A DNA stretch of 64,000 nt from Yoonia sp. GPGPB17. Its GTDB lineage: Bacteria > Pseudomonadota > Alphaproteobacteria > Rhodobacterales > Rhodobacteraceae. Position numbers and translations under genes: made by a program. The DNA lies in NCBI RefSeq assembly GCF_037892195.1, contig NZ_JATACI010000002.1, forward strand, positions 1,612,001 to 1,676,000, in the 5' to 3' direction. The notes under the pieces were generated by a model, which had not been told where the DNA came from, did no database searches, and saw only the letters and a program-made list of their open reading frames with translations. This document shows positions 3,632 to 62,149 of the stretch, one piece after another (the first letter of the stretch is position 1; the number at the start of each line of letters is the position of its first letter).

Positions 3632-4745
3632 CTATCTTGTATTCAATCGCTCCAGATTGACGATTGTGGATAGCATCAGCCGGTCATGGCTCCAATCCTT
3701 GGCTGGCTGCAACGCAACTGTCATAAACAGCGCCAAACCAAGCGAGAATGCAATGATCGCATTGCCAAAACGGTGTCTGTCAACGGTGACGTTGCCATCC
3801 AGCAAAGACACGATCCGCTTCTTAAGAAAACCACCCGAGTGGCTGGCACACAGCTTAGCGATCGATCTGGACAAATGGTACGCTGGGTGTGACGATTTGA
3901 TTGGATCGATCCCCAGTCAGACTTGTGCGGCACACCCTTAAAAGGCATTCGCAATAGTCTTTGACCAAATGCCTGTTTTTGCTCAGGACCTGTTGGTCAC
4001 AGGTCAGTTCGCGCAACCGCTCGACATCGCGTTTGCAAGATGCAAATGCGGGGTTCCAAAAGAAGAATGGCCGGATCAATTCAAGCGCGATCTCCCATGT
4101 CAGATCATGCTGGCGGATGTGCTGCAACTCATGTGTTACGGCGATCCGCACGTCATTTTCCTGTGCCAGCAGACCTGTTGGCAAAACAACGTAATAGCGC
4201 CAGAGACCACGGGTTGAAAACGGGACGCGCGTTTGATGGGTGAAGCGAATGTCAACACGACCAACCCGGCGCAGCACATAGCTGCTGCGGATCATTTTCA
4301 TCAGGTACAACGTATCACGTGCGTTGCGCACTACAATGATGCAGAACCCACAGGTCAACCCGCCCAGAACCGCGTAACCCAGCCAGGTGGACAATGACGC
4401 GATCTGATGCGTGACCTCAGTGCGCCACATCAGCAGGCGTTCGAATTCAGTGGGTGCAAGGGCGATGTTTCCGTCCAGATACTGTGAGACCAGAAAATCC
4501 GACAGCCTTACGCCACTGTGCGTTGAGAGCAGGCCCCATCGCTGACAGGTCTCTACGCAGACTGCGAGCAGTGGTGAAAACACGATCATCGCGATCAGGC
4601 CGTAAAGCAGGTGAAGCTGGACCTGATATGCGCCACGCAACGACGTGTGCGCAAAAAGCTGTTTGGATGCAAACCAGATGATCGTCACCGCGACCAAGAT
4701 AATGTTGGCATCGATATAGGCGCTGAGTAGGTGTTCAGTTGTCAT
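3632..4745 (-). CDS. M56 (BlaR1/MecR1-type) membrane metallopeptidase, interrupted by frameshift
   Basis: Membrane peptidase paired with the BlaI repressor just upstream. In the BlaR1/MecR1 paradigm the M56 partner inactivates the repressor on a signal. Three to four hydrophobic segments lie in the first 150 residues, followed by the zinc motif HELQHIRQHD near residue 208 and a final transmembrane stretch (IIAFSLGLALFMTVAL) near the C-terminus. There is no penicillin-binding sensor domain, so the signal is unlikely to be sensed as in BlaR1. The frame breaks at 3853-3859 (TAA inside GCTAAGC on the coding strand). Restoring GCCGGC joins FVQIDR to a RLCASHSGGFLKKR continuation in frame, about 370 residues in total. 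The start overlaps the end of blaI by 11 bases. Confidence 0.75.
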
Positions 4746-5150
4746 TGTCGTTCAACCTCCTATCCAAGAGTGCCCGTATCTCTGTCAGTGCTTCCTCAGA
4801 CATGCCTTGATCATCGACCAAGCGCGCCACCATTGATGCTTAAGCGTGCCATCAAACAGTTTGTCTGACAGATCGCGCAGCGTCTTTGATTGATATGCGT
4901 CTTTGGCAAGCAAGGGTCGATAAACGAAGGTTTTCCCACGCTTTTCACTGGTCACAAAGTTCTTTTGTTCCATGATCCGCAGGATTGTCGCGGCCGATGT
5001 ATAGGCAAGGTTGCGATCTGGCGCGAGGTTGGCCAGCACATCGCGTACGCTTCCCTCACCCAAGGCCCAAAGCTCTGTCATGAACTCAAGCTCAACCTCG
5101 GTCAGGAATTCGCTTTTTTTCTTTTGCCGCATACCGCGCCCCATCAACAT
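4735..5150 (-). CDS. BlaI/MecI/CopY-family repressor, interrupted by frameshift
   Basis: Winged-helix transcriptional repressor of the BlaI family, about 138 residues once the frame is repaired. The recognition region (VRDVLANL, LAYTSAATILRIMEQKNFVTSEKRGKTFVYRPLL) is intact. The frame is lost after KLFDGT at GCTTAAGC, 4838-4845. With GCCGGC there, it reads on as PASMVARLVDDQGMSEEALTEI to a TGA at 4735, a normal BlaI C-terminus. ATG 5150 has GGGGGAG eight bases upstream. Methionines at 5141 and 5132 are possible alternatives. The gene is followed by its M56 partner with overlapping ends, so the two are probably translationally coupled and self-regulated through the dyad just upstream. Confidence 0.75.
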
Positions 5151-5156
5151 CTGAAC

Positions 5157-5176
5157 TGCTCCCCCATTGGGGAGTA
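5157..5176. promoter_or_regulatory. Candidate BlaI operator (inverted repeat)
   Basis: CTCCCC and GGGGAG flank a four-base spacer, with one more matching T/A pair two bases out, immediately before the blaI start and overlapping its ribosome binding site. Position and symmetry fit autoregulation by the adjacent repressor. It could also act as a weak hairpin between the glp operon and blaI, which run in the same direction 62 bases apart. Confidence 0.5.
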
Positions 5177-5212
5177 GATACTAAGACCTTCGTATGTCCA
5201 AGAATTTTCGCA

Positions 5213-5491
5213 TCAGACCTTCCAAAAACAGAAAATCCCCCATGCAATGCTGATTGCCAGCGGCCCCCATAGCGGCATCCCGAAAAAGAAGATCCAGGCC
5301 AGAAAAATGTAAGCTGTACCCAGCAGCGACAGGAACAGCCGGTCGCCTCGCGTCGTCGTCAGGCCCAGCACACCCTTGCGTTCGGACGTGCCGGGGTAGC
5401 GGATTTCGATGAAGGTGATGATGCCCATTGCGGTAAACAATCCGATGAAAAACAGCCCTGTGGGCCATGTCCATGCCATCCAGCCAAACAT
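5213..5491 (-). CDS. glpU: DUF2160 small membrane protein of the glycerol transporter (GlpU-like)
   Basis: A 92-residue, very hydrophobic protein with three predicted membrane segments (TGLFFIGLFTAMGIITFI, LFLSLLGTAYIFLAWIFF and LAISIAWGIFCFW). DUF2160 proteins occur in the rhizobial and roseobacter glycerol ABC operons (glpSTPQUV), where this member is called GlpU. Its role is not well defined. It starts one base after the stop of glpQ and is the last gene of this operon. The assignment rests on both sequence and position. Confidence 0.75.
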   Translation of the reverse strand: MFGWMAWTWPTGLFFIGLFTAMGIITFIEIRYPGTSERKGVLGLTTTRGDRLFLSLLGTAYIFLAWIFFFGMPLWGPLAISIAWGIFCFWKV

Positions 5492-5492
5492 A

Positions 5493-9296: not shown

Positions 9297-9325
9297 AAGT
9301 GCCCTATCGAGGGGTCAGAGTGAGT

Positions 9326-9352
9326 GACCGAGGCCCATGACAGGCCCCGGTC
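9326..9352 (-). terminator. Intra-operon hairpin between glpV and glpS
   Basis: Arms GACCGAGGCC (9326-9335) and GGCCCCGGTC (9343-9352) pair at nine of ten positions around a seven-base loop, in the gap between the binding-protein gene and the ATPase gene. There is no T run. Hairpins in this position often protect the upstream message or partly attenuate read-through, so that binding protein is made in excess. That role is inferred. Confidence 0.45.
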
Positions 9353-9386
9353 GGTGTCGGCGCAGTAAAGCGCCAGACAGGGAGGT

Positions 9387-11125
9387 CTACTCAGATGCCC
9401 AGCGGGCAACCAACTCGTCGTAGTTGACGGTCTCACCCTGCGGTTTCTCGTTCTCAAGCGGTGGCTTGGCGCCGCCGTTTGCAAACCAGTATTCGGCCGT
9501 CTGTTCCTCGTTCAGACGTGGACCACAACCGCCATAGACGTTGGCGGCCTCATCAGCGGCCTGCATCCGGGACATGGTGATATCCATTTCCTCGGCCAGA
9601 CGGTCCATCGCCTCTTGCGGGGTAAACGCGCCAGAGTTCACGTCACCAATCTGCTGCCACCAGATCTGGGCCAGCTTTGGATAATCCGGCACGTTGATGC
9701 CGGTTGGCGACCAAGCCACGCGGTCAGGCGAGCGGTAGAATTCCACCAAGCCACCCAGTTGCGGTGCGCGCTCGCTGAAGGACTCGTGGTTGACCGTGCT
9801 ATCGCGGATAAAAGTCAGACCCACATGAGACTTTTTCACGTCGACCGTTTTGGACACGACAAACTGCGAGTAAAGCCATGCGGCCTGTGCGCGATCCAGC
9901 GGCGTGGAGTTTAGGATCGTCCATGAGCCCACATCCTGATAGCCAACCTTCTGGCCTTCTTCCCAGTAAGGGCCGTGTGGGGACGGCGCCATGCGCCATA
10001 GTGGATTGCCATCGGCATCAACCGTGTTGTTGCTTAAGCAGACTGTGGGGCCACCATGTCGGCGGTAAAGGCTGTGTACCAGAAGATCTGCTGAGCCACG
10101 TTGCCTTGTGCCAATGCAGGCAGGGACTGATAGAAGTCATAGCTTGCCGCACCCGGCGGGGCGTAGGCGCGCAACCATTCATCCCACTTGCGGATCGCAT
10201 AGACCGCAGCCGGGCCGTTGGCAGCACCACCGCGTGTCACGGATGCACCAACTGGGTTGCAAGTGCCCGCTTCCATGCGGATGCCCCATTCGTCGATCGG
10301 CACGCCATTCGGTTCACCCACCGAACCGGCACCAGCCATCGACAGCCAGGCGTCCGTCATACGCCACCCAAGGTCAGGCGCGCGTTTGCCGTAGTCCATG
10401 TGACCATAAATGCGAACGCCATCGATTTCCTGCACATCGTTGCTGAAGAACTCAGCGATGTCCTCATAAGCGGACCAGTTCACAGGCACGCCCAGTTCAT
10501 AGCCGTACTTGGCCTCAAACGCGGCTTTGTTCTCTTCATCATCGAACCAGTCCTTGCGGAACCAATAGAGGTTCGCAAACTGCTGATCGGGCAGTTGATA
10601 AAGATCGCCATCAGGGCCGGTTGTGAACTGAATGCCCATGAAGTCTTCGAGATCCAGATTGGGGTTCGTCACCGCCGCACCTTCGCTTACCATAAAATCG
10701 GTCAGGTTGCGCGCCAACTGCAAACGCGAATGCGTGCCAATCAGGTCGCTGTCGTTGACATAGGCGTCATATAGATTGCGGCCAGTTTGCATCTGGGTTT
10801 GCACGGCCTGAACGACCTCACCTTCGCCCAGAATCTGGTGGTTTACCTTGATGCCTGTGATTTCTTCAAAGGCCTTTGTCAGGACTTCGCTTTCGTAAGA
10901 ATGGGTTGGAATGCCTTCGGAGAGTACGTTGATCTCCATCCCGGCATAAGGTTGTGCGGCTTCAATGAACCACTGCATTTCAGCCATCTGTTCGTCCTTG
11001 GACAATGTGGACGGCTGGAATTCTTGATCAATCCAACGCTGTGCGGCAGCTTCATCAGCCAAAGCACTATTGGACCCCGCAACCACGGCTGAAACCGCGA
11101 CTGCGGAGAGCAGATACTTGCGCAT
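9387..11125 (-). CDS. glpV: Glycerol ABC transporter substrate-binding protein GlpV, interrupted by frameshift
   Basis: Large periplasmic binding protein, about 579 residues with its signal peptide, the size typical of GlpV. ATG 11125 is chosen because GGGAGGAG precedes it closely and a signal peptide follows (KYLLSAVAVSAVVAGSNSALA). The frame stops after MVAPQSA at GCTTAAGC, 10032-10039. With GCCGGC the protein continues GNNTVDADGNPLWRMAPSPHGPYW to the end at 9387. It is the first gene of the operon, transcribed towards glpS. Binding glycerol is inferred from the operon. It is probably intact in the organism. Confidence 0.8.
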
Positions 11126-11509: not shown

Positions 11510-13074
11510 TTACTTCATCGTAATGCGGCCATCGGTGTAGGGCTGGTAAGGTGCATTGGCTGCGATGTACTCGGCCGTCACATCTGCAAGATCGGGGCCA
11601 TAGTCATAAGCATTCATCGCGTCTTCGAACATGGCATAGCCATCGCCGCCGTTGCGGACGTAGTTGTTGGACACAAGGCTATACGTCGCTGCCAGATCAA
11701 TCGGTGCACCACCGACCATGACGTCAGACACCCGTGAACCCGGGGCAGCGGCTGCATCAACGCTGAATGACATGCCCGCCACCTGCGGGAAGCGACCTGC
11801 GCCTTCTTCGATCTGGCCAACACCATTTTCAAGAGCCGCGACAATCGCATCACCGGTCACTTGGAACGTGGACAATGTGTTCTGGAACGGCAGCACTGTC
11901 AGGACTTCGCCCATGGTGATTTCACCAGCGTCAATTGACGCCCGCAAACCACCGCCATTTTGGATGGCGATCTGTACGCCTTGATCGGCAACGCGATCCA
12001 ACATCGCGTCTGCAACAAGGTTGCCCATCGGGCATTCCATCGCGCGGCAGACAGAACGATCGCCTTCGATGGCCTCAGCCGCATCACCAACAACGCGGGT
12101 TTTCATCTCTTCAATCGGACCGGCAAGTTCAGCTACACGCGCCACAGCACCTTCGTCTTCGGCGACGCTGGCATCCAGCAGGATCGTATCACCAGTAGCG
12201 GACGTCACATTGCCCGCATCATCAAACACCAACGTCAGGTGCCCAATGTACTTGGAATAGGCATAGGCCTGCACCACTGGCACTCCATTCACCACTGTTG
12301 GATAGGCCATGGCATCTTCGTCTGTGTTGGAAAACAGTGTATGCGAGTGCCCGCCAACAACTGCGTCAAGGCTTAAGCAACGCTTTCAGCAGCGGCCATA
12401 TCCTTGGTCACACCCATGTGTGTCAGCGCGATAATCTTGGTCACGCCTTCTGCTTCAAGTGCGGCAACGTCAGCAGCCAGGCTTTCACTCTCTGCCGTAA
12501 AGATCACTGCGTCAGAAGGGCTGGAGGTTTCAGGCGTATCTGCGGCCAGCGCCGAAATGATGCCAATACGCTCGCCACCGACTTCAAGCACAACATGGTT
12601 CTCGACCTGACCGGCGAGGATGTTTGAACTGGACACGTCGATGTTGCCAGAGATGACCGGAAAGGACACCGCATCCGTCAGCTTGCGCAGGCCTTCGTCG
12701 CCGTCATCAAATTCGTGGTTGCCGACAGCCATGACATCATAGCCGATCTGCTCCATGAACTCAGCTTCAACATCGCCCTTATAGGTCGTGTACATCAGGC
12801 TACCCTGATACTGGTCGCCTGCATCGAGAAGAACCACGTTCTCACCAGACAATTCTTCGCGCAGTTCGTTGATCTTGGTGATCACCCGCGCAATCCCGCC
12901 AAAGCATTCGCCTGCGGCGTTGTCTTCGGCGTTACACGTGGAATCGAAACGGTTGATTGGCTCGATCTGGCTGTGCAGATCGTTGGTGTGGATAATGTGC
13001 AAGGTATAGTCCGCCGTTGCCACACTTGCCGTCATGGCCAGCGCACAGGTCGTCGTCATCAAACGTAAAAGCAT
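11510..13074 (-). CDS. Periplasmic 5'-nucleotidase / UshA-type metallophosphoesterase, interrupted by frameshift
   Basis: Exported calcineurin-type phosphoesterase with a C-terminal 5'-nucleotidase domain, about 520 residues. It dephosphorylates nucleotides or related phosphate esters in the periplasm. After a signal peptide come the metal motifs HTNDLHSQ, DAGDQYQGS and GNHEFDDG. The C-terminal half has NGGGLRASIDAGEIT and NNYVRNGGDGY, which form the substrate pocket. ATG 13074 is preferred over an upstream ATG because GGGGGA precedes it and the signal peptide begins there. The frame breaks at GCTTAAGC, 12371-12378. GCCGGC restores VAGLDAVVGGHSHT, the conserved metal-binding GGHSHT block. Confidence 0.8.
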
Positions 13075-13561: not shown

Positions 13562-14610
13562 AAGCGCTTGAAAAAATCGGCCTTGCCACCCTGCGGCGGA
13601 TCGATCCCGAGGTCGCACATGGCCTGGCACTGAAAGCCCTGAACACCGGGCTGGGGCCACGTTCAGGCCCTGTGACTTCAGATCGCTTGAAATCCACCCT
13701 TGCCGGTATCGCGTTGCCAAATCCCGTTGGATTGGCCGCTGGATTTGATAAGAACGCAACCGCGTTACACGCTTTGTCCAAAACCGGGTTTGGATTTCTT
13801 GAAGTTGGGGCGGCCACCCCCCGTCCGCAGCCCGGAAACCCCAAACCACGCTTGTTTCGGTTGGCGCAGGATCAGGCGGCGATTAACCGGTTTGGTTTCA
13901 ACAATGACGGGATGGGCGTAATCGCAGAGCGTCTTGCCGGGCGCCCCAACGGTGCTGTGATCGGACTAAACCTTGGCGCCAACAAAGATAGTGCTGACAA
14001 GGCCGCCGACTTTGCCACGGTTCTGACACGCTGCGGTCCGGTTGTGGATTTTGCCACGGTAAACGTGTCCTCGCCAAACACCGAAAAATTGCGTGACCTG
14101 CAAGGCAAGGCGGCCCTCGCGGCCTTGCTGGCCGGGGTGATGGAGGCACGTGCAGCACTTGCCACCCCAATCCCTGTGTTTTTGAAAATCGCACCAGACC
14201 TGACAAGCGATGAAATTAGCGAAGTCGCCGAAGTGGCAAATGAGTCCGGCATCGACGCGATTATCGCAACAAATACCACCTTGGATCGCGATGGTTTGCA
14301 TGGGCCGCACAAGGCCGAAATGGGCGGGCTGTCTGGACAGCCGTTGTTTGAAAAATCCACACGTGTGTTGGCGCAGCTGTCGGGCCTGACCAGCTTGCCC
14401 ATCATCGGTGTTGGTGGTGTCGGCAACGCGGATCAAGCCTATCAAAAAATCCGGGCCGGAGCCTCAGCCGTCCAGCTCTATACAGCACTTGTTTACGGCG
14501 GCATCTCGCTGGCCGCTGAGATCGCGCAAGGCCTTGATGATTTGCTCGCGCGGGATGGTTTTGCCAATGTGTCGGACGCCGTCGGATCAGGCCGCAGCGA
14601 TTGGACGTGA
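13558..14610 (+). CDS. pyrD: Dihydroorotate dehydrogenase (quinone), class 2
   Basis: FMN enzyme of 350 residues that oxidises dihydroorotate to orotate in pyrimidine synthesis and passes electrons to quinone at the membrane. Class 2 is indicated by the amphipathic N-terminal extension ([25 protein letters not shown]) and by Ser in the catalytic loop VNVSSPNT. Other motifs are [36 protein letters not shown] and the FMN phosphate site [22 protein letters not shown]. The 3' end overlaps the convergent MATE gene by 24 bases. Confidence 0.95.
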
Positions 14611-15925
14611 TGCGGGTTTGTCGGCTTCAGCCTCCAGCGCCGGATATTTCCATCCTAGCGTCACCCCGCGCACAACAAAATTCAGCAACAGGCCGATCCA
14701 TAGCCCATGGTTCTGGAACATCGCCATCAAGGGGACCACCGTCGCAAAGTAGATCGCCGCTGAGATCAGCATCATGTTGCGCATGTCTTTGGTGCGCGTC
14801 GCCCCGATAAAGATGCCGTCCAACATCCATGCTGCGACACCAACAATCGGGGCGGCCACCATATACGGCAGATAGACGCGCGCTGTTTCCCGCACATCGG
14901 GGGCGGTGGTCATGATGTCTATGATCGCCCCGCCAAACACAGCAAACGAAACAGCCAAAACCGCACAGACGATCCCGCCCCAAAGGCTGCTCAAAACTGC
15001 GCTGCGCCGCAAAGCGGCCCGCGCCCGCGCGCCCAGCGCCTGACCGACCAGCGCCTCGGCTGAAAACGCAAACCCATCCAACGCATAGGCGGTAACCTGC
15101 AGGAACTGCATCAGGATCTGATTGGCGGCCAGTTGTACGTCGCCAAAATCAGATCCGAAAAACAGAAAACTGACAAAGATCGCTTGCAACAGGACCGAGC
15201 GGATCAGGATATCCGAATTGACCATCGCCATGTGCCTAAGCCGCACAACATCAAAGACGCGCGCCATCGACCGCCACGCAGCGCGGCGAAACACACCCCT
15301 TGCAGAACCAGAGCCCCAGCACCAGACCGCCCCATTCGGCCATAAAGGTCGCCCAGGCGACACCTTCGATACCCCATCCAAGCTCAAGCCCCAGATAGAA
15401 GCTTAACGCGATGTTGGCACCATTCATGCCGACCTGCAGAACCAGGACAGCCTGCGTGCGTTCCTGCGCAATCAGCCAACCCGTTATACCGTAGAGCGCA
15501 ATGGTCGCGGGGGCGGACCAAATGCGGATTGTCATGTAGTCACGCGCCAAAGCCTCGACCTCGGCACTGGCGGGCGAAACCCAGAACGCCCCTTGGAAGA
15601 TCGCCAGTTGGGCTATGATCATAACCAAGCCCGCTGAAATCCCGATCAGCAGGGCGCGCGACAGCAAGGCGTCAACCTCGTCCACGTCCCCGGCCCCGGC
15701 TGCCTGCGAGGTCAGACCAGTTGTGCCCATGCGCAGAAAGCCAAAAATCCAATAGACTGATGACAGAATGATTGCGCCGATGCCGACAGCACCAATCGGT
15801 GCCGCTTCGCCCAGCTGGCCAACGACGGCCGTGTCGACAACGCCCAAAATCGGCACCGTGGCGTTCGACAAGACAATCGGCAAGGCAATCGCCAGGACCC
15901 TGCGATGGGTTAGGGCGTCAGCCAT
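14587..15925 (-). CDS. MATE/DinF-family efflux transporter, interrupted by homopolymer frameshift
   Basis: Multidrug/oligosaccharide-lipid-like exporter of the MATE family (about 445 residues, 12 predicted helices), closest in layout to DinF. The N-terminal half reads [37 protein letters not shown], a textbook MATE start. At 15296-15303 the coding strand has GGGG where three G would keep frame. Correcting it gives [18 protein letters not shown] and continues to the stop at 14587. The likely extra G makes this different from the nine GCCGGC-type lesions in the window. Start overlaps the thioesterase gene end by eight bases. Confidence 0.8.
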
Positions 15926-22365: not shown

Positions 22366-24564
22366 ATGACCGATTTTACCATGAGCACAGACGCCGACGG
22401 CGTCGCCACAATCGTCTGGGACACGGTTGGCAAATCCATGAACGTGATGAACCAACAGGGGTTCCTCGATCTGGACGCGCTGGTGGATCAGGCGCTGGCC
22501 GATGACGCGATCAAAGGTGTGATCATCACCTCCGGCAAAGAAGGTTCTTTTGCTGGCGGTATGGACCTCAACATCATCGCCAAGATGAAGGAAAGCGCAG
22601 GTGATGATCCCGCGCGGGGCCTGTTCGAAGGTGTGATGGATATGCACGCGGTACTGCGCAAGATCGAACGCGCAGGCATGGACCCCAAGACCAACAAAGG
22701 TGGTAAGCCGATTGCCTGCGCCCTGCCCGGCACAGCGCTTGGCATCGGCCTGGAAATCCCACTGGCCTGTCACCGCATTTTTGCCGCTGACAACCCAAAG
22801 GCCAAGATCGGCCTGCCTGAAATCCTGGTCGGCATCTTCCCCGGTGCCGGTGGCACGACACGCCTGTCGCGCAAGCTGGGTGCGATGGGTGCTTCTCCGT
22901 TGCTGCTGGAAGGTAAGCTGAACGATCCCAAGAAGGCCAAGGCGGCCGGTGTCGTTGATGAGGTTGTCCCTGCGGATGAACTCCTATCGGCAGCCAAAGC
23001 ATGGATTCTGTCTGAGCCATCCATCGTCAAGCCATGGGACGAAAAGGGCTACAAAATGCCCGGTGGTGCACCTTATCACCCTGCAGGTTTCATGACCTTT
23101 GTCGGGGCCTCAGCCATGGTGAACGGCAAAACGCAAGGTGTCTACCCTGCCGCCAAGGCGTTGCTTTCTGCGGTCTATGAGGGCGCACTCGTGCCTTTCG
23201 ACACGGCCATCAAGATCGAGGCACGCTGGTTCACCAACGTCCTGATGAACCCGTCCTCCTCTGCGATGATCCGCAGCCTGTTCATCAACAAGGAAGCTTT
23301 GGAGAAGGGCGCAAACCGCCCCGAAGCCCCCGACCAGAAGGTCAAGAAGGTTGGCGTCATTGGTGCAGGAATGATGGGCGCCGGTATCTCGCTCGTCTCT
23401 GCTCTGGTAAGCATTGAAGTCGTCCTTATCGACAGCACGCAGGAAGCTGCGGACAAAGGCAAATCCTACACCACTGCGCATCTCGACAAAGGCATGGCCC
23501 GCAAGAAGGTCACGCAGGAAAAGAAAGACGCCGTGTTGGGCCTGATCAACGCGACCACGGACTATGACGCGCTGAAAGGCTGCGGTCTGATTGTTGAGGC
23601 CGTGTTCGAAGATGTGGGCGTTAAAGCCGACGTCACCGCCAAGGTGCAGGCCGTCACCGGCCCGGATTGCATCTTTGCGACCAACACCTCCACCCTGCCC
23701 ATCACGGAACTGGCAAAAGCGTCAAACGATGCCGAGAAGTTCATCGGTATCCACTTCTTCAGCCCCGTCGACAAGATGCTGCTGGTGGAAATCATCAAAG
23801 GCAAAGAGACTGGAGATGTGGCGGTGGCCAAAGCGCTGGATTACGTCCGCCAGATCAAGAAGACACCGATTGTCGTCAACGACGAACGCTTCTTCTACGC
23901 CAACCGCTGCATCATCCCTTACATCAACGAAGGCATTCGGATGGTGAAAGAAGGGGTGGAGCCTGCGCTGATCGAAAACGCGGCCAAACTGGTGGGCATG
24001 CCACTTGGTCCGCTGCAGTTGGTCGATGAAACCTCGGTTGATCTTGGCGTAAAGATTGCCAAGGCAACCAAAGCCGCGATGGGCGATGCCTACCCTGACG
24101 GCGAAGTCGACGAGGTGCTGTTCTGGATGTTCGATCAGGAACGTCTGGGCCGCAAGTCTAACGCGGGCTTCTATAGCTACGATGAAAAGGGCAAGCGCGG
24201 TGGCCTGTGGGATGGTCTGGCGGCCCAATACCCGGTCGCTGACGAACAGCCTGACTTGACCACGGTACAGCACCGCCTGCTCTTCGCACAAACGCTCGAA
24301 GCTGTCCGCGCGCTGGAAGAGGGCGTGTTGGAAGACATCCGCGAAGGTGACGTCGGCGCGATCTTGGGCTGGGGCTTTGCCCCTTGGTCCGGTGGCCCGT
24401 TCAGCTGGCTCGACATCATCGGCGCGCCTTATGCCGCCGAACGGTGTGACCAGTTGACCGAACAGTTTGGCGAACGTTTCAAGACACCAGACCTGCTGCG
24501 CGAAATGGCCAACAAGGGTCAGGACTTCTACAAGCGTTTCGGCACCGCCGCAAAAGCAGCCTAA
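22366..24564 (+). CDS. fadB: 3-hydroxyacyl-CoA dehydrogenase / enoyl-CoA hydratase (FadB/FadJ-like)
   Basis: Bifunctional beta-oxidation protein of 732 residues. The N-terminal crotonase domain shows GSFAGGMDLN and ALGIGLEIPLACHRIFA, with EILVGIFPGAGGTTRLSRKLG carrying the catalytic Glu region. The NAD domain begins VGVIGAGMMGAGIS near residue 327, with NTSTLPITEL and IGIHFFSPVDKMLLVEII. The C-terminal HAD domain is present. Start 22366 is preferred to 22357 because AAAGGA is about ten bases upstream of it. It ends in GTAAKAA, a normal terminus. The stop lies inside GCCTAAGC, the same octamer as one of the lesions, but here I take it as genuine. Confidence 0.88.
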   Translation: MTDFTMSTDADGVATIVWDTVGKSMNVMNQQGFLDLDALVDQALADDAIKGVIITSGKEGSFAGGMDLNIIAKMKESAGDDPARGLFEGVMDMHAVLRKIERAGMDPKTNKGGKPIACALPGTALGIGLEIPLACHRIFAADNPKAKIGLPEILVGIFPGAGGTTRLSRKLGAMGASPLLLEGKLNDPKKAKAAGVVDEVVPADELLSAAKAWILSEPSIVKPWDEKGYKMPGGAPYHPAGFMTFVGASAMVNGKTQGVYPAAKALLSAVYEGALVPFDTAIKIEARWFTNVLMNPSSSAMIRSLFINKEALEKGANRPEAPDQKVKKVGVIGAGMMGAGISLVSALVSIEVVLIDSTQEAADKGKSYTTAHLDKGMARKKVTQEKKDAVLGLINATTDYDALKGCGLIVEAVFEDVGVKADVTAKVQAVTGPDCIFATNTSTLPITELAKASNDAEKFIGIHFFSPVDKMLLVEIIKGKETGDVAVAKALDYVRQIKKTPIVVNDERFFYANRCIIPYINEGIRMVKEGVEPALIENAAKLVGMPLGPLQLVDETSVDLGVKIAKATKAAMGDAYPDGEVDEVLFWMFDQERLGRKSNAGFYSYDEKGKRGGLWDGLAAQYPVADEQPDLTTVQHRLLFAQTLEAVRALEEGVLEDIREGDVGAILGWGFAPWSGGPFSWLDIIGAPYAAERCDQLTEQFGERFKTPDLLREMANKGQDFYKRFGTAAKAA

Positions 24565-36998: not shown

Positions 36999-38893
36999 AT
37001 GAAGTATCGCGACGTATACGCCAGCTGGAAAGGCGATCCAGAAGGGTTCTGGATGGATCAGGCCAAGGCTATCGACTGGGTCACACCACCAACCAAGGCG
37101 CTCGACGACAGCAATGCCCCACTCTACCGATGGTTCACCGACGCCGAAGTGAACACCTGCTACAACGCCGTCGACCGCCACGTCGAAAATGGGCGCGGCG
37201 CACAAACTGCGATCATCTACGACAGCCCGATCACCCATACCAAACGCGAGATCAGCTACGCGGAATTACAGACACGGGTCGCCTCGCTCGCTGGTGCCCT
37301 CCGCGCCAAGGGCGTCGAAAAAGGTGACCGCGTTATCATCTATATGCCCATGATCCCCGAAGCGCTTGAGGCGATGCTGGCCTGCGCACGCCTGGGTGCC
37401 ATCCACTCTGTCGTGTTTGGCGGTTTTGCGGCCAACGAATTGGCCGTACGCATTGACGATGCGACCCCCAAAGCGATCATCGCGGGGTCCTGCGGGATCG
37501 AGCCGGGGCGCGTGGTGCACTACAAACCCTTGCTTGACGGTGCCATTGAACTGGCGACGCACAAACCCGATTTCACCGTGATCTTCCAACGTGAACAAGA
37601 GGTCGCAGACCTCATCCCCGGTCGCGACTACGATTGGCATGGGTTCCAAGCCGGTGTTGAACCTGCTGAATGTGTGCCTGTCAGAGGCGACCACCCCGCT
37701 TATATCCTCTACACTTCAGGCACCACCGGCGCGCCCAAGGGTGTTGTCCGTCCAACTGCAGGTCATCTTGTTGCCCTGAACTGGACCATGAAGGCGATCT
37801 ACGATGTTAACCCCGGTGAGGTTTTCTGGGCGGCTTCTGATGTTGGTTGGGTCGTGGGACACTCATACATCTGTTACGCCCCACTGATCCACGGCAACAC
37901 CACCGTAGTCTTCGAAGGTAAGCCTATCGGCACCCCCGATGCGGGGACGTTCTGGCGCGTGATTGAGGAATACGATGTTAAATCATTCTTCACCGCCCCC
38001 ACCGCCTTCCGCGCGATCAAACGCGAGGACCCGCAAGGCGAGATGATAAAGGACTACGACGTCTCCGGTTTACGGGCGCTTTATCTGGCGGGCGAACGCG
38101 CGGACCCCGACACTATCGAATGGGCGCAACGCGTCATGGGCGTGCCAGTCTACGATCACTGGTGGCAGACGGAAACGGGCTACACCATCGCCTAAGCAAC
38201 CCCGCAGGGATTGAAGCGCTACCGGTGAAAATCGGATCGCCCACCGTGGCGATGCCCGGCTATGACGTACAGATTCTGGACGAGGCGGGCCATGAAATGA
38301 AACCGGGTGAACTGGGTGCCATCGCCGTGAAACTGCCCCTACCCCCCGGCACCTTGCCGACGCTTTGGAACGCCGAAGACCGGTTCATCAAATCCTACCT
38401 CAATACCTTCCCCGGCTACTACGAGACGGGTGACGCAGGCATGATTGATGAAGACGGCTATCTCTACATCATGGCGCGCACGGATGACGTGATTAACGTC
38501 GCCGGGCACCGGCTTTCAACCGGCGCGATGGAAGAAGTTCTGGCCGGGCATCCTGATGTGGGCGAATGTGCCGTCATCGGCGTGACGGATGAGTTGAAAG
38601 GCCAACTGCCCATGGGGTTCGTCTGTCTGAACAAAGGGTGTGACCGCCCGCACGACGAAATCGCCAAGGAGGTCGTGACATCGGTACGCCAGACGATTGG
38701 GCCGGTGGCCGCCTTCAAACTGGTCGCGGTGGTGGACCGGTTGCCTAAGACACGTTCTGGTAAAATCCTGCGCGGGACCATGGTCAAAATTGCTGACGGG
38801 CAGGACTTCAAAATGCCCGCCACGATTGATGATCCGGCGATCCTCGATGAAATCAAGCAAGCCTTGATCCCCATGGGGTATGCGCAAGGCTGA
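36999..38893 (+). CDS. prpE: Propionyl-CoA synthetase (PrpE), interrupted by frameshift
   Basis: Acetyl/propionyl-CoA synthetase, about 631 residues, activating propionate to propionyl-CoA. Motifs are YTSGTTGAPKGVVRPTAGH near residue 240, VFWAASDVGWVVGHSYICYAPL, YDHWWQTETGYTIA, YETGDAGMIDEDGYLYIMARTDDVINVAGHRLSTGAMEE and the catalytic Lys in TRSGKILRGTM. ATG 36999 follows AGGGAGG. The frame breaks after TIA at GCCTAAGC (38190-38197). GCCGGC gives TIAGNPAGIEALPVKIGSP, the expected family sequence. It is probably functional in the organism. AcsA-type acetate activation is the alternative. Confidence 0.85.
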
Positions 38894-41661: not shown

Positions 41662-42957
41662 ATGAACGTCACAGTCCGCGACGACGGCTTTTTCACCGAA
41701 ACACTCGAAACCCGCGACCCGGCGATCCATGCAGCGATGCAAGCCGAACTCAAACGCCAGCGGAAAGAAATTGAGCTGATCGCGTCCGAGAACATCGTCT
41801 CTGCCGCCGTCATGGAAGCCCAAGGCGGCGTGATGACGAACAAATACGCCGAGGGCTATCCGGGCCGCCGCTATTACGGTGGCTGCGAACATGTGGACGT
41901 GGCCGAAAACCTTGCCATCGCGCGCGCCAAACAACTGTTCAATTGTGAATTCGCCAACGTGCAGCCAAACTCTGGCTCGCAGGCCAACCAGGGCGTGTTT
42001 CAGGCGCTACTTCAGCCCGGCGATACGATCCTTGGCATGTCGCTGGATGCCGGTGGTCACCTGACACACGGCGCTAAGCCGAACCAATCCGGCAAATGGT
42101 TCAATGCGGTGCAATACGGCGTGCGCCAACAGGATAGCATGTTGGACTATGACGAAGTGCAGCGCCTTGCCACGGAACACCAGCCCAAGATGATTATTGC
42201 CGGCGGCTCTGCCATTCCACGCATCATCGATTTTGCGAAAATGCGCGAAATTGCGGACAGCGTCGGTGCTTACCTCTTGGTGGACATGGCGCATTTTGCC
42301 GGTCTGGTCGCCTGTGGCCTCTACCCCTCGCCTTTCCCGCATGCACATGTGGCAACGACTACGACCCACAAAACCCTGCGCGGCCCACGTGGCGGCATGA
42401 TCGTCACCAATGACGAGGCGATTGCCAAGAAGTGCAACTCCGCCATCTTCCCTGGTATTCAGGGCGGGCCATTGATGCATGTGATCGCTGGCAAGGCTGT
42501 GGCTTTTGGCGAAGCGCTGCGCCCCGAATTCAAGACTTATCAGGAGCAGGTCGTGAAGAACGCCCAAGCGCTGGCCGATCAGCTGATGAAAGGTGGTCTC
42601 GATATCGTCACCGGCGGCACGGACACCCATGTGATGCTGGTTGATCTGCGCCCCAAAGGCGTCAAGGGCAACGCGACCGAAAAGGCTTTGGGTCGCGCGC
42701 ATATCACCTGCAATAAGAACGGCATTCCGTTCGATCCCGAAAAGCCGATGGTCACATCCGGCATCCGCCTCGGCTCGCCTGCGGGCACCACGCGTGGCTT
42801 TGGCGAACCTGAATTCCGCCAGATCGCCGACTGGATCGTGGAAGTGACCGAAGGTCTGGCGGCCAACGGCGAAGACAACAACGGCGCCGTCGAAGCCAAA
42901 GTGCGCGCCGAAGTCGAGGCGCTCTGCGATAGATTTCCAATCTACCCAACGCTCTAG
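41662..42957 (+). CDS. glyA: Serine hydroxymethyltransferase
   Basis: PLP enzyme of 431 residues interconverting serine and glycine with tetrahydrofolate. The active-site Lys is in [19 protein letters not shown] near residue 240. Other motifs are [67 protein letters not shown] and [29 protein letters not shown]. The gene holds the only intact GCCGGC I found in the window, at 42199-42204. It also holds a natural in-frame GCTAAGC (Ala-Lys) at 42073. A strong hairpin follows the stop. Confidence 0.96.
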
Positions 42958-43341: not shown

Positions 43342-43418
43342 TGGCGATCCGACAAGGACTCGAACCCTGAACCTGCTGATTAGAAGTCAGCTGCTCTATC
43401 CAGTTGAGCTATCGGACC
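43342..43418 (-). tRNA. tRNA-Arg (anticodon UCU)
   Basis: On the minus strand the acceptor stem GGTCCGA pairs with TCGGATC (one G-T). The anticodon stem GCTGA/TCAGC carries the loop CTTCTAA with anticodon TCT, the T arm reads CAGGG-TTCGAGT-CCTTG, and the 3' end is G plus an encoded CCA. It decodes AGA. A possible integrase remnant lies next to its 3' end. Confidence 0.93.
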
Positions 43419-43910: not shown

Positions 43911-45147
43911 TCACGCCCATTCACCGCCCCGCATCACAGGCACACGCTCACCCGTTTTTGTGATCCCATCAATATCCACCGCATCAGATCCCATCATCCA
44001 ATCCACATGGATGATACTCTGATTGCCACCCTTTTGCTTCAACTGTTCAGGCGAGAGCTCAGACCCACCTTCAATCGTATCGGCATAGCATTGCCCCAAC
44101 GCGATATGGCACGACGCATTCTCATCAAAAAGCGTGTTGTAAAACAGCGTCCCAGACTGGCTGATCGGACTGGAATGCGGCACCAGCGCCACCTCACCAA
44201 TCCGGCTCGCACCATCATCGGTTTTGAGCAAGGCGTTCAACACATCCTCACCCTTGCTCGCCGTCGCCTCTACGATGCGGCCCGCCTCAAAACGCACCGC
44301 TATGTCCTCAATCACATTGCCCTGATGGGCGAGTGGTTTGGTCGCTGCAACAGTCCCATCCACTTTATAGGCATGCGGGCAGGTAAAAACCTCTTCGGTC
44401 GGGATATTCGGCTGACACGTCACACCATTCAACGCGGGCGACGCCCCGCCCTTCCAGATATGGCCATCCGCCAAACCCAAATGCAGGTCTGTGCCCGGTC
44501 CGGTGTAGTGCAATGCCGCAAAATCCTGCGCGTTCAGCCAGTTCACCCGCTCTTTCAACGTAGCCGTATGGGTTGCCCAATTCGCCACAGGATCATCGCC
44601 ATCCAAACGGGATGCTGCATAGATGGCATCCATCAACTTGCCCTGCGCCTCGTCCACCGGCAGATCGGGGTACACTTTGGCCGCCCAAGCCGCCCCAGGA
44701 TAGGCCACGATATTCCAATTAACTTCAAACCCCACAATCGGGTTCATTGCAGGTTTTGCGGCAATCGAGGTCGCCTTACTCAATCGGGCAACCTTTTCAG
44801 GGTCTTGCGCAGCCAGGAGCATTGGGTCGTCGCCCGTGATCGCCATCCGCGCCGCACCGCCCTTGAAGGCCGCTGCCATCCCCTCAAACAGCCATTCCGG
44901 GGCGCGATCAAAACTTTCATCCGGCGCATGCTCATAGCGCGCCAGCGTGATCGCATCATCATTGAAGAAGGGGGTCACAATGCCCGCGCTAAGCCTTATA
45001 GGCATGGACGGCAATCAGGCGCACGAGATCGAGGGCCGCCATCGGTGCCGTAATCACCAAATCTTGCCCCGGTTGCAGGTTTACACCGGTGCGCACAGCC
45101 ACTTCGGCAAGACGGTCAAGTTTGGCAGGGTCAATATGGTCGGACAT
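43911..45147 (-). CDS. M29-family aminopeptidase (AmpS/thermophilic type), interrupted by frameshift
   Basis: Metal aminopeptidase of about 411 residues. M29 features include NWNIVAYPGAAWA, FNPIGMG-like substrate region, FTCPHAYKVDGTVAATKPLAHQGNVIEDIAVRFEAGRIVEATASKGED (metal ligand Glu), LFYNTLFDENASCHIALGQCYADTIEGG and IIHVDWMMGSDAVDIDGIT (His and Asp ligands). ATG 45147 (MSDHIDPAKLDRLAEVAV) fits family starts. The frame is lost after AVHAYKA at GCTTAGC on the coding strand (44988-44994). GCCGGC restores AYKAGAGIVTPFF, the conserved sequence. Minus-strand gene ends at the double hairpin. Confidence 0.82.
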
Positions 45148-46785: not shown

Positions 46786-48988
46786 ATGGCTGACGCTGCT
46801 ACCGACGCTCACCACTATCTGTCCAACCCCGCCCCTGACGTCAAAACCCGCGAAAAGCTGGAGGGTGGCAAGCAGTTCGTGCTGCAAACCGAATTCGCAC
46901 CGGCAGGGGACCAGCCACAGGCGATCAAAGAGCTCTCCGAAGGCATCATGAACGGCGAACGTGATCAGGTGCTGCTGGGTGCCACCGGCACTGGCAAAAC
47001 CTTCACGATGGCGAAGATGATCGAGGAAACGCAGCGCCCGGCGATCATTCTTGCCCCGAACAAAACCTTGGCGGCCCAGCTCTATGGCGAGTTCAAAGGG
47101 TTCTTCCCCGACAACGCCGTCGAGTACTTTGTCTCTTACTACGACTACTACCAACCCGAAGCCTACGTTGCGCGCTCCGACACTTACATCGAGAAAGAGA
47201 GCCAGATCAACGAACAGATCGACCGGATGCGCCACTCGGCCACCCGCGCACTGCTCGAACGCGACGACGTGATCATCGTCGCCTCAGTCTCCTGCATCTA
47301 CGGCATCGGCTCGGTCGAAACCTACGGCGCCATGACGCAAGACCTTCACATCGGGCGCGAATACGATCAGCGCAAGATCATGGCCGACCTGATCGCCCAG
47401 CAATACCGGCGCAACGACCAGGCCTTCCAACGCGGCACATTCCGGGTGCGCGGCGATAGCTTGGAAATCTGGCCCGCTCACCTGGATGATCGCGCATGGA
47501 AGCTGTCTTTCTTTGGCGAAGAGCTGGAAAATATCACCGAGTTCGACCCGCTGACAGGCGATAAAACCGACACCTTTGAAAAGGTCCGCATCTACGCCAA
47601 CAGCCACTACGTCACACCGCGCCCCACGATGCAGCAGGCCATCATTGGCATCAAAAAGGAACTGCGCATCCGCCTCGACCAATTGGTGGGCGAAGGCAAA
47701 CTGCTGGAAGCGCAGCGCCTCGAACAGCGCTGCAACTTCGACCTCGAAATGCTCGAGGCGACCGGCGTCTGCAACGGCATCGAAAACTACTCGCGCTACC
47801 TGACGGGCCGTGCACCCGGCGAACCGCCCCCTACCCTTTTCGAATTCATCCCCGACAATGCCATCGTCTTCGCGGACGAAAGCCACGTCTCCGTCCCCCA
47901 AATCGGCGGCATGTACAAAGGCGACTATCGGCGCAAGTTCACATTGGCCGAACACGGGTTCCGCCTGCCGTCCTGCATGGATAACCGACCCCTGAAATTC
48001 GAAGAATGGGACGCCATGCGCCCGCAATCGGTCTTCGTCTCGGCCACGCCAGCAGCGTGGGAGCTGGAACAGGCAGGCGGTGTCTTCACCGAACAAATCA
48101 TCCGCCCCACCGGCCTGATCGACCCCGAGATCGAAATTCGCCCTGTCGATATGCAAGTTGACGACCTGCTGGATGAGGTCCGCAAGGTCGCCGCCGACGG
48201 CTATCGCACGCTGGTCACGACCCTGACCAAACGCATGGCCGAAGACCTGACCGAATACATGCACGAACAGGGCATCAAGGTCCGCTACATGCACTCCGAC
48301 ATCGACACGATTGAGCGTATCGAAATCCTGCGTGACCTGCGCTTGGGTGCTTTCGATGTCCTCATAGGGATCAACCTGCTGCGCGAGGGGCTCGACATCC
48401 CCGAATGTGGGCTGGTGGCCATCCTCGACGCCGACAAGGAAGGCTTCCTGCGTTCTGAGACGTCGCTGGTGCAAACCGTCGGTCGTGCGGCGCGAAACGC
48501 CGAAGGGCGCGTGATCATGTACGCCGACCGCATCACCGGTTCGATGGAGCGGGCAATCAAAGAGACCAACCGCCGCCGAGCCAAGCAGATGGCCTATAAC
48601 GAAGAACACGGGATCACGCCACAGACGGTCAAAAAGAACGTCGAGGATATCCTCGCTAAGCCTCTACAAAGGCGACGTCGACATGAACCGGGTTACTGCG
48701 AAAGTCGACAAACCCATGGCCGGGGCCAACCTACAGGCCGTATTGGACGGGCTACGCACCGACATGCGTAAAGCGGCCGAGAACCTCGAATTCGAAGAGG
48801 CCGCAAGACTACGGGACGAGGTGAAACGGCTGGAAACTGTGGAACTGACGGTTGCAGACGACCCGCTGGCGCGACAGCAGGCCGTGGACAGGGTGGTGGA
48901 TGACGCGCAGAAAGCATCTGGGCGGAGCACCGGCGGGCGTGGGGGCATGCGCGGCGGGAAGTCGCGGTATGGTGGGAAGAAGAGGTGA
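46786..48988 (+). CDS. uvrB: Excinuclease ABC subunit B, interrupted by frameshift
   Basis: DNA repair helicase-like subunit, about 734 residues, that verifies damage delivered by UvrA and recruits UvrC. Walker [14 protein letters not shown] is near residue 64, the beta-hairpin [22 protein letters not shown] near 118, helicase motif [16 protein letters not shown], and [26 protein letters not shown] and [12 protein letters not shown] complete the motor. The C-terminal UVR domain ([18 protein letters not shown]) lies after the lesion at GCTAAGC, 48655-48661. GCCGGC restores [21 protein letters not shown] 46786 follows AAGGATCC. Loss of uvrB would be surprising, which supports an artefact. Confidence 0.9.
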
Positions 48989-52835: not shown

Positions 52836-52843
52836 ACTTGCAG

Positions 52844-54331: not shown

Positions 54332-55716
54332 ATGGATACGCAGACATTCGCAAACGATCCCGAGACTGTCATCGAAGCTGACCGGGCACATGTCTGGCAC
54401 CACCTGAGCCAGCATAAACCTTATGAAACAGTAGACCCCCGGATTATCGTCGAGGGGAAAGGCCTGCGGGTCTGGGATATCAAAGGTAAAGAACATATCG
54501 ACGCCGTATCTGGTGGTGTCTGGACGGTAAACGTCGGCTATGGCCGCGAAAGGATCGGCAAAGCCATCTCGGATGCCGTCACCAAGATGTGCTTCTTCGG
54601 CGGCACCGCTAAGCGACAATCCCCGGCGCACAATTTGCCGAGATGCTGATCGACAAGATGCCCGGTCTGGACCGAGTCTATTATGCCAACTCTGGCTCAG
54701 AGGCGAATGAAAAGGCATTCAAGATGGTCCGCCAGATCAGCCACAAACACTATGGCGGAAAGAAACAAAAAATCCTCTACCGCGAACGTGACTACCACGG
54801 CTCCACCATCGCGACAATGTCTGCGGGCGGTCAGGACGAGCGCAACGCGCAGTACGGGCCTTTCACGCCGGGCTTTGTGCGTGTGCCACATTGTATGGAG
54901 TATCGTTCACAGGACGGCAGTCTTGGCGAAGAGTACGGCGCGAAGGCCGCTCAGGCGATTGAAGACGTGATTTTGGCAGAAGGTGCCGACACCATCGGCG
55001 CGTTGTGCCTTGAGCCGATTACTGCGGGTGGTGGCATCATCGTCCCGCCAAAGGGGTACTGGGAGCGTGTTCAGGAGATTTGCAAGAAGTATGATATTCT
55101 ACTGCATATCGATGAAGTGGTTTGCGGGATCGGACGGACCGGGACATGGTTTGGTTATCAGCAATTCGGCGTCCAGCCTGACATCGTGACAATGGCGAAA
55201 GGCGTGGCCTCAGGCTATGCGGCGATTTCCTGCTGCGTCACAACAAATCGCGTCTTTGACATGTTCAAGGATGAGACGGACCACCTTGGCTACTTCCGCG
55301 ATATCTCGACCTTCGGTGGGTGCACCGGCGGCCCTGCTGCCGCGATCGAAAACATGAAGATTATCGAGGAAGAAGATCTGCGCGGAAACTCTGTCGCGAT
55401 GGGCGAGCACCTGCAAGGCAACCTGCACGCGCTGATGGAAAAGCATAAGTGGATCGGCGACGTGCGCGGCATGGGCCTGTTTGCGGGTGCTGAGTTGGTG
55501 AAGGACCGCAAGACAAAAGAACCCGTTGATGAAAAACACGTCGGCGCCATCGTGGCGGACTGCATGGCGCAGGGTATCGTCATTGGTGCGACAAACCGGT
55601 CATTGCCCGGCTATAACAATACCTTGTTGTTCGCACCCGCGTTGGTGGCGACAGCAGATGACCTCAACCAGGTCACAGCTGCCGTTGACGAAGCGATCAC
55701 CCGCGTCTTGGGCTAA
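54332..55716 (+). CDS. tpa: Taurine-pyruvate aminotransferase, interrupted by frameshift
   Basis: PLP aminotransferase (class III), about 461 residues, making sulfoacetaldehyde and alanine from taurine and pyruvate in the cytoplasm. Visible are RIIVEGKGLRVWDIKGKEHIDAVSGGVW, YYANSGSEANEKAFKMVRQ, LCLEPITAGGGIIVPPKGYW, ILLHIDEVVCGIGRTGTWFGYQ and the PLP Lys in DIVTMAKGVASGYAAISC. ATG 54332 gives MDTQTF. The frame breaks after FFGGTA at GCTAAGC, 54608-54614. A GCCGGC repair plus removal of one G yields TAGTIPGAQFAEMLIDK. Nearly all of the enzyme lies after the break. Probably intact in the organism. Confidence 0.88.
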
Positions 55717-55853: not shown

Positions 55854-55923
55854 CCGTCTCCGACAAGCTATGCTTATGAAACGGGCTACACCCATGTTTC
55901 CGTCGCGGGAATCTGCACGTTGC

Positions 55924-55982: not shown

Positions 55983-56007
55983 CTGGCACTCAAAATAGGG
56001 CCAGACT

Positions 56008-57468: not shown

Positions 57469-57534
57469 TTTTTGAGACCATGCGTCTCAAAAAAAATGTC
57501 ACTGGCAATAAGAACGATGATCAACTGGACCTAA
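57469..57534. promoter_or_regulatory. xsc leader: hairpin and TauR boxes
   Basis: TTTTTGAGAC/GTCTCAAAAA (57469-57478, 57484-57493) is a perfect stem directly after the tauR stop. Then CTGGCAATAA (57502-57511) and CTGGACCTAA (57525-57534) form a direct repeat 23 bases apart, roughly two helical turns, on the same face of the DNA. This is the best candidate TauR-binding site driving xsc-pta-ackA. Confidence 0.65.
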
Positions 57535-57627
57535 CGCCAATGGGTTGCCGAACTTAATGTCAGCGCAGCAAAAGGGGGGATTCTGCGCCCCCGTTTTCTA
57601 TGGAATTTTAGGGAAGGACCCACCGCC

Positions 57628-59400: not shown

Positions 59401-59402
59401 GC

Positions 59403-60149: not shown

Positions 60150-60150
60150 T

Positions 60151-61086
60151 ATGACCTCACCTTTCCTCTCTCCCCGCACGGCGCAAGCGCCTGCAGATTT
60201 GATCGCCCGTGCGCAGACCTATGGCGCGCCACGGGTCGCGATTGCCCGCGCCTACGCGCCCTTGCCCATGGAGGCGGCTGAAGATGCGACGAAAGCAGGC
60301 ATCATGGTGCCTGTCTTTGTCGGTGAAGCCGATATGATCCGCGCCGAGGCGGCCAAACTGGATTGGGATATCTCAGGCTACGCTCTGCACGATACAACGG
60401 GTGAGGAAGAAGCAGGCCAAACAGCAGCGGCCCTTTGCGGCGCTGGCGAAGCTGACGTTCTGATGAAGGGGCAGTTGCACACCGACGTCTTCATGAAATC
60501 CGCCGTTAGCCGCGATGCAGGGCTGCGCACCGGCAATCGGTTTGTGCATATCTTCCACATTTCACACCCGGACGGCGGCAAGCCGATCCTGATCTCTGAC
60601 GCCGCAGTCAATGTCTCCCCTGATCTTGCAACCCGGCAGTCTGCGATCATCGAGGTGGAAAAACTGCTGAACAAATTAGGCAACGCTCGCCCCAAGATTG
60701 CGATCCTATCAGCGACTGAAAGCATCATCCCATCCGTGCCAAGCTCTGTTGATGGGCGCGCGCTTGCAGATTGGGCGCGCGAAAATGTGGTAAGCAGCGA
60801 TGTTTCAGGGCCATTGGCGCTTGATCTGATCATGTCACCCGAGGCTGTCGCCACAAAGAAATTAAGCGACGATCCTGTTGCGGGTCAGGCAGACGCGATC
60901 ATTGTGCCGGATATCGTATCGGGCAACGCGCTGTTCAAAGCTTTTGTCTACCTGACCGGTGGCTGTGCTGCTGGCGTTGTCACCGGCGCGAAGGTGCCGA
61001 TCCTGCTCACCTCACGCGCCGACCCACCAGCAGCGCGGATCGCATCAGCGGCCCTTGCCGCCATCAGTTGCGGTTTGCCAAAATGA
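60151..61086 (+). CDS. pta: Phosphate acetyltransferase
   Basis: PTA_PTB-family enzyme of 311 residues making acetyl-CoA from the acetyl phosphate produced by Xsc. Conserved features are VFVGEADMIRAEA, EADVLMKGQLHTDVFMKSAVSRDAGLRTGNRFVHIFHI, LISDAAVNVSPDLATRQSAIIEVEKLL, and ILSATESIIPSVPSSVDGRALADWA. It is the short form without N-terminal regulatory domain, as in taurine operons. The ATGA overlap with ackA shows coupling. Confidence 0.92.
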   Translation: MTSPFLSPRTAQAPADLIARAQTYGAPRVAIARAYAPLPMEAAEDATKAGIMVPVFVGEADMIRAEAAKLDWDISGYALHDTTGEEEAGQTAAALCGAGEADVLMKGQLHTDVFMKSAVSRDAGLRTGNRFVHIFHISHPDGGKPILISDAAVNVSPDLATRQSAIIEVEKLLNKLGNARPKIAILSATESIIPSVPSSVDGRALADWARENVVSSDVSGPLALDLIMSPEAVATKKLSDDPVAGQADAIIVPDIVSGNALFKAFVYLTGGCAAGVVTGAKVPILLTSRADPPAARIASAALAAISCGLPK

Positions 61087-62149
61087 TCCTGGTGCTAAAC
61101 GCGGGCTCCTCCTCGCTGAAAATCGAGGTTTTTGACGAAGCGCTTGGCTCTGTCATTTCGGGCCGCGTGACGAACCTTGGGACATCCGGGGAACTGAAGC
61201 TGGGCGACACGACCTCCCCGGTCGAGACCCGCGACCACGCCCATGCGCTCGAATTGATGTTGGCAGCCTTGGCGGACGCCGGTTTCCCACTGTCGTCTTT
61301 CGCCGCCGCTGCACATCGTATCGTACATGGTGGGGCCGTGATGACCCAACCTGCACGGCTGCGTCCGCCCGTGATCGCCACCATCGAAAGCGTGATCCCC
61401 CTTGCACCGCTACACAATCCCAACAACCTCGCAGGTGTGTACGCATTAAAGGATATGGCACCAGATCTGCCACAGTATTGCAGCTTTGGGACGGCCTTTC
61501 ACGCCACCAATCCAGAGGTTGCGACGCGCTACGCCATCCCGCAAACGCATCATGATGCGGGCATCCGCCGGTACGGTTTTCATGGGTTGTCTTACGCCAA
61601 CATGGTCGCTGATTTCGGCAAGGCGCTGCCGGAACACCTTCTTGCGTTCCACCTTGGCAACGGCGCCAGCCTTTGCGCGATCCACAATGGCAAATCCATC
61701 GCGACGTCGATGGGGTATTCGCCGCTGTCAGGTCTGACGATGGGCACGCGTTCCGGTGACATCGACGGTGCCGCTGTGCTGCGCATGTCCAAGTCGCTGG
61801 GCGAGGATGAGACGGACCGGATGCTGAACAAGAATTCCGGCCTGCAAGCGCTTGTTTAGGCGACAACAATATGAAGACCTTGTTGGAACGCAACGACGAC
61901 GACGCCAAATTCGCAGTAGAGCATTTCTGCTACTGGGCCGCGCGTCATGCGGGGTCAGCCGTTGTTGCAATGGGTGGCCTTGATGCCGTCGCCTTTACCG
62001 GTGGCATTGGCGAGAATGCGGCCCCGATCCGCGATCGGATCATGGAACTGCTCGCATGTTTTGGCGACGTCCCGGTGCATGTCATCGCCGCCGACGAGGA
62101 GAAACAAATCGCCCGCGATGCCCTTGCCTTGATCGCAGAGGGGCGTTGA
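61083..62149 (+). CDS. ackA: Acetate kinase, interrupted by frameshift
   Basis: Acetokinase of about 355 residues giving acetate and ATP from acetyl phosphate. N-terminal LVLNAGSSSLKIEVF, AAHRIVHGG, IPLAPLHNPNNLAG, GIRRYGFHGLSYANMV and LAFHLGNGASLCAIHNGKSIATSMGYSPLSGLTMGTRSGDID are intact. The frame is lost at GTTTAGGC, 61854-61861; GCCGGC restores SGLQALAGDNNMKTLLERND. GGIGENAAPIRDRI follows. The start overlaps the pta stop. It permits acetate overflow alongside Pta. Probably intact in the organism. Confidence 0.9.

Follow-up and report, generated by a model that had tools for sequence, protein, structure and literature searches.

Nine genes in a 64,000-nucleotide stretch of the Yoonia sp. 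GPGPB17 genome (contig NZ_JATACI010000002.1, positions 1,612,001 to 1,676,000; hereafter the window) lose their reading frame at a TAA-bearing word of seven or eight bases, which raises the question of whether these words are mutations, recoding signals or errors of the assembly. A preliminary description of the sequence favored the last of these, proposing that a modified GCCGGC had been miscalled again and again in the consensus. Our analysis supports that proposal, through the scarcity of GCCGGC and the surplus of a lesion word across the genome, through relatives in which the genes are intact, and through an enzyme pair of the expected family. We estimate at about 90% the probability that the lesions arose during long-read assembly, by recurrent miscalling of the consensus where GCCGGC is modified, and are absent from the DNA of the cell. 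The broken genes would then not be a biological feature, and all nine are very probably whole in the living bacterium.

A position check placed each of the nine words at a break in the reading frame, in agreement with the preliminary description. On the minus strand, GCTTAAGC interrupts a BlaI-like (PF03965) gene at 4838..4845, a solute-binding protein gene at 10032..10039 and a 5′-nucleotidase gene at 12371..12378, in the last case between the metallophosphatase and 5_nucleotid_C halves. Also on the minus strand are an M56 peptidase-like gene, where GCTTAGC on the plus strand (3853..3859) reads GCTAAGC on the coding strand, and an M29 peptidase gene, where GCTAAGC on the plus strand (44988..44994) reads GCTTAGC on the coding strand. 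On the plus strand, GCCTAAGC interrupts prpE, encoding a propionate-CoA ligase-like protein, at 38190..38197, GCTAAGC interrupts both uvrB at 48655..48661 and a class-III aminotransferase gene (tpa in the preliminary description) at 54608..54614, and GTTTAGGC interrupts ackA at 61854..61861. As for the other names given earlier, the label blaI agrees with the PF03965 match, the product having a weak CopY score that lies under the cut-off of that model, while glpV could not be kept for the solute-binding protein gene, which matches SBP_bac_1 only; we use it below as a label. The outer GC...GC of GCCGGC is kept in eight of the nine words, with the change at the central CG, which is replaced by TTAA, TAA, TTA or CTAA; GTTTAGGC differs from GCCGGC at the second base as well as at the center.

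Words of these types, in either orientation, occur 13 times in the window, 9 of them at frame breaks. A GCTAAGC at 42073..42079 on the plus strand is a genuine occurrence and was ruled out as a lesion, since the serine hydroxymethyltransferase gene that contains it is unbroken there; the same gene holds the sole remaining GCCGGC of the window (42199..42204). Two more, at 24559 and 50598, have the appearance of natural stops: the first terminates a 751-amino acid open reading frame (ORF) in which the hydratase and dehydrogenase domains are both complete, and the second lies at the end that a gene shares with its relatives, to which it is 99% identical over 99 residues. The fourth, GCCTAAGC at 15234, occurs by two MatE-domain ORFs that lie in different frames on the minus strand (14587-15925) and overlap at 15254-15387, and may mark another broken gene.

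To compare the broken genes with their relatives, the two 240-base flanks of each site were searched separately against the relatives' open frames, on the coding strand and with one ORF per source; for the left-hand genes, 87 of the 295 genomes were unscored. The results show that the two halves share a single open ORF, at constant spacing, in all relatives of uvrB (34/34), glpV (27/27), prpE (19/19), the M29 peptidase (16/16), ackA (16/16), the 5′-nucleotidase (10/10), the BlaI-like gene (10/10) and tpa (6/6). Compared with these relatives, the window has one extra base in the M29 peptidase gene and uvrB, and two in glpV, the 5′-nucleotidase gene, prpE, ackA, the BlaI-like gene and tpa. In tpa, one of the two surplus bases lies outside the word, as had been noted beforehand. 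The mean amino acid identity of the flanking coding sequence to relatives is 69-97% in eight of the nine genes. The weakest site is that of the M56 peptidase-like gene, with seven relatives at 49% identity and the modal spacing in three of the seven, so that the claim of nine broken genes stands for eight and is weak for this one.

At the lesions themselves, the second residue of the affected pair is Gly in every relative of glpV (27/27), the 5′-nucleotidase (10/10), the M29 peptidase (16/16), uvrB (34/34) and ackA (16/16), and in only 11 of the 19 of prpE. For uvrB, whose 5′ piece in the window has its best matches in Rhodobacteraceae and other alphaproteobacteria, a nucleotide alignment with 29 loci of the same genus and 9 from other genera shows that each lacks one base relative to the window. 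None of the 29 same-genus loci carries the lesion word; they read GCAGGC, GCGGGC, GCCGGC and similar words at that place. Relatives that do not have GCCGGC at the broken sites had been named beforehand as an observation that would speak against a miscall. The relatives mostly do not have it, yet they are lesion-free at eight of the nine sites, and we regard the outcome as neutral. GCCGGC as the original word is suggested by the outer bases, which are preserved, and by its deficit across the genome described below, not by the sequence of the relatives.

Intact downstream halves, together with the single protein found in relatives, are also what one would expect if the words were real and the ribosome shifted or hopped past the TAA to make a full-length protein. 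We consider such programmed recoding extremely improbable. The net offset is +1 at some lesions and +2 at others, all three codon phases are affected, and the palindromic words occur in either orientation. Relatives have no such words at these sites, and recoding does not predict a matching loss of GCCGGC. The retained outer bases with a change at the central CG, the variable word length and the three codon phases fit an error at the level of the signal rather than a biological recoding signal.

If the words are miscalls, GCCGGC should be depleted and the lesion word enriched throughout the genome, and this is what the word counts show. The assembly comprises 4.21 Mb in five contigs at a completeness of 96%; the comparison set comprised 55 further genomes of the genus, and words were counted in 24 of them and in this one. 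GCCGGC is present in 166 copies against 1225 of the reversed word CGGCCG, a ratio of 0.14 that is the lowest of the 25 genomes, the other 24 ranging from 0.37 to 1.02 (median 0.71). Conversely, GCTTAAGC is present in 166 copies, or 39 per Mb, against 3.4-16.4 per Mb in the 24 others, and it outnumbers its own reversed word 166:70 (ratio 2.37). In a 380-kb sample of the genome, GCCGGC is the most under-represented 6-mer, with 11 sites against ~157 expected under a Markov model. The corresponding test for over-represented 7- and 8-mers did not raise GCTTAAGC; sub-words rise along with the word, making the test blind here.

The lesion words are also tied to frame breaks well beyond the window. 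Within the same 380 kb, a lesion word lies at most 40 nucleotides from 19 of 144 same-strand coding-frame switches, where ~1.6 would be expected (Poisson 2e-14), as compared with 0 of 93 switches in 326 kb from five relatives. Switches are more frequent here (37.9 per 100 kb vs. 28.5 in the relatives), and many of the 125 that have no motif resemble abutting genes. At GCTTAAGC in the sample, a two-base shift was found at 6 of 7 scored sites, another 7 being too weak to call. For GCTAAGC in one orientation, the frame was kept at three and shifted at four of seven confident sites (15 too weak); in the other orientation, the four calls comprised one kept, two shifted and one strand change (6 too weak). 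The 7-mer alone is not diagnostic of a lesion, and the words have a real background. Taking the 14 GCTTAAGC sites of the sample together with 26 from 20 targeted regions, low-confidence calls included, we found a two-base offset at 22 of 40 sites, none at 6, one base at 2, and a strand change or no clear call at 10. The surplus of GCTTAAGC over the genus median is ~130 copies; if this word makes up a third of the lesions, as in the window, a rough extrapolation gives a few hundred lesions genome-wide. No second copy with a different reading was found for 107 word flanks within the DNA examined.

Which genes are cut elsewhere bears on whether the lesions are real. Elsewhere in the genome, we delimited the pieces of 17 genes that GCTTAAGC cuts, 10 of which were classified from their halves taken separately: a NuoF-like subunit, GAPDH, CbiD, CobB, RNase E/G, a Hint-domain protein, a phage portal protein, an alpha-amylase-like enzyme, O-acetylhomoserine sulfhydrylase and GatB. 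The same Pfam profile continues over the lesion in four of the ten, namely GAPDH (profile positions 1-92, then 95-158), CbiD (1-45, then 56-254), the sulfhydrylase (1-289, then 299-380) and GatB (1-37, then 40-276); in the remaining six, one half is unmatched or is matched differently. A living strain is unlikely to be without GatB. The completeness of 96% compares with 98-100% in 17 of 24 relatives of the genus.

The words could in principle be true mutations left by a process acting at GCCGGC in the cell, for example cutting of under-methylated sites by a NaeI-type enzyme followed by error-prone joining. Such an origin would agree with the words being centered on GCCGGC and with an endonuclease of a GCCGGC-cutting family being encoded by the strain. 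It would require that GatB, GAPDH, RNase E/G, uvrB and ackA had all been lost together, and that all breaks were recent, given the 69-97% mean amino acid identity around them; moreover, the word excess is missing from 23 other genomes that encode NaeI. We therefore judge true mutation to be very improbable.

The enzyme in question belongs to the family of NaeI, which we take to recognize GCCGGC. At locus L122 (contig C2, 2806000-2824000), a 294-amino acid protein matches the NaeI family PF09126 at 1.1e-39 and the solved NaeI structure (1ev7) at 2.2e-19, the VDCK of NaeI aligning with VDIK. Directly upstream, on the same strand, lies a gene for a 318-amino acid C5-cytosine methyltransferase (PF00145, 1.5e-69; L122:8396-9352, minus strand). 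Homologues of this methyltransferase adjoin NaeI in 12 of 12 NaeI loci from other genera, to which the methyltransferase is 72-77% and the endonuclease 33-39% identical. An enzyme for GCCGGC had been expected from the lesions, and one was thus found in kind, as a NaeI-family endonuclease beside a C5-cytosine methyltransferase. From its family, the pair probably methylates GCCGGC. A RIMS-seq table lists a GCCGGC methylase with 5-methylcytosine at position 3 (PMC8565308); this position and its mirror on the opposite strand make up the central CG, where eight of the nine words depart from GCCGGC. A search for an NgoMIV-type endonuclease (PF09015) gave no match in this genome, nor in 14 control genomes.

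Two further features were seen at or near restriction-modification genes. Beside the NaeI locus, a SIR2-like protein gene is followed by one for a HerA-type ATPase (L122:9603-12487, contig C2), both with strong PADLOC matches to SIR2 and HerA, which makes them a likely SIR2-HerA defense pair. On the 37-kb contig C4, with plasmid-like genes nearby, lie a second C5-cytosine methyltransferase gene and a predicted type II endonuclease gene (PADLOC PDLC03404; L121:7650-9783).

NaeI was found in 24 of 394 genomes of the family, this one included, one other (G099) being fragmentary. The 23 other NaeI-bearing genomes showed no excess of GCTTAAGC when scanned, with at most 41 copies and a ratio to the reversed word of at most 0.45, against 2.37 here. 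Hence NaeI or its motif alone does not generate the word, which argues against a biological lesion. Many of these 23 assemblies consist of tens of contigs and possibly derive from short reads. The same comparison bears on a technical fault that involves no DNA modification, in which the basecaller or polisher fails on GCCGGC by its sequence alone. We consider this improbable, even though the methylation is deduced and insertions are unusual for 5-methylcytosine among the published errors considered. The fault strikes the very motif predicted for the restriction-modification pair encoded by the strain, while the reversed CGGCCG stays common (1225 copies), and a fault of sequence alone would show in every genome processed by the same pipeline, whereas neither the 23 NaeI-bearing nor the 24 same-genus genomes, which may come from other pipelines, have the excess.

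Based on these observations, we infer that each site was originally GCCGGC, methylated, read natively and miscalled, as follows. The methyltransferase paired with the NaeI-family endonuclease would methylate both strands of GCCGGC, with the third base as the probable target. In native long reads, most likely from Oxford Nanopore, the modification would alter the signal of the central C-G step, and the basecaller would put TTAA, TAA, TTA or CTAA in place of that step. With the same error in most reads, the consensus would keep it, and a GCCGGC within a gene would gain one or two extra bases and break the frame. Five contigs for 4.21 Mb fit a native long-read assembly without short-read correction. 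Motif-bound modification errors that outlast polishing are described for Nanopore data (PMC10687267, at GCAGC and GCTGG in Listeria; PMC11610573).

Several points weigh against a methylation-driven miscall. The sequencing platform and the methylation are both deduced. The gain of one or two bases is a poor fit to the published modification errors considered, which are mainly substitutions, and PMC10687267 states that indels are not their source; in another species, methylated GCCGGC was read by Nanopore with no such problem reported in the excerpts of PMC12871193. A relative of the same genus (G007, locus L115) has a methyltransferase 63% identical to the one here, though possibly with another target, while its GCCGGC ratio is normal (0.96) and GCTTAAGC is not in excess. 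In another (G001, 83% complete), GCTTAAGC outnumbers its reversed word more strongly than here (40:12), though with no more than 15 copies per Mb. The uvrB loci of relatives (L082-L110; 149 kb) likewise have GCCGGC as their most under-represented 6-mer (24 vs. ~78 expected), so that true avoidance in the genus explains part of the deficit, with a further deficit here. Finally, the 11 GCCGGC of the 380-kb sample, and the 166 genome-wide, did come through as GCCGGC. The insertions could stem from basecalling with an older model, from a lack of polishing or from a modification that is bulkier. An unusual or bulkier group on the cytosine of a NaeI-type site would account for an insertion-type miscall in which the central CG often becomes the palindrome TTAA; that the GCCGGC of this strain bears a modification different from plain 5-methylcytosine, or additional to it, is nonetheless unlikely. 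Literature searches by title and abstract gave no report of GCCGGC read as a TAA-bearing word.

With respect to the window as a whole, positions 1-43342 have no counterpart at the syntenic place in five relatives of the genus, while to the right of a tRNA-Arg gene (43342-43418) the counterpart is present. The left part is possibly an island or a rearrangement.

If the lesions are miscalls, a single motif may have given a contiguous public genome a few hundred false pseudogenes, by the rough extrapolation above, and the apparent loss of uvrB, gatB or ackA would mislead pangenome, pathway and essentiality work. In turn, a depleted word together with a recurrent frame-breaking word can indicate a modification enzyme before methylation is measured, and the insertion-type error spectrum would make a useful test case for basecallers.

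Programmed ribosomal frameshifting and bypassing are marked by conserved coding on either side of an out-of-frame stop. The genes studied here share this property, but their lesions vary in offset, codon phase and word length, and relatives are without the signal. The enzyme pair resembles known NaeI restriction-modification systems (PF09126, 1ev7) in having a family endonuclease with a neighboring C5-cytosine methyltransferase, as in the 12 of 12 loci; it differs in that the endonuclease is only 33-39% identical to theirs and its specificity is predicted. Another parallel is with the Nanopore modification errors described in PMC10687267 (Modpolish), PMC11610573 (Lohde et al.) and PMC12392509. 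Whereas those errors are mainly substitutions through C/T and G/A ambiguity and the words here gain one or two bases, both are bound to a single short motif, are strain-specific, outlast the consensus and are linked to a modification system of the same strain.

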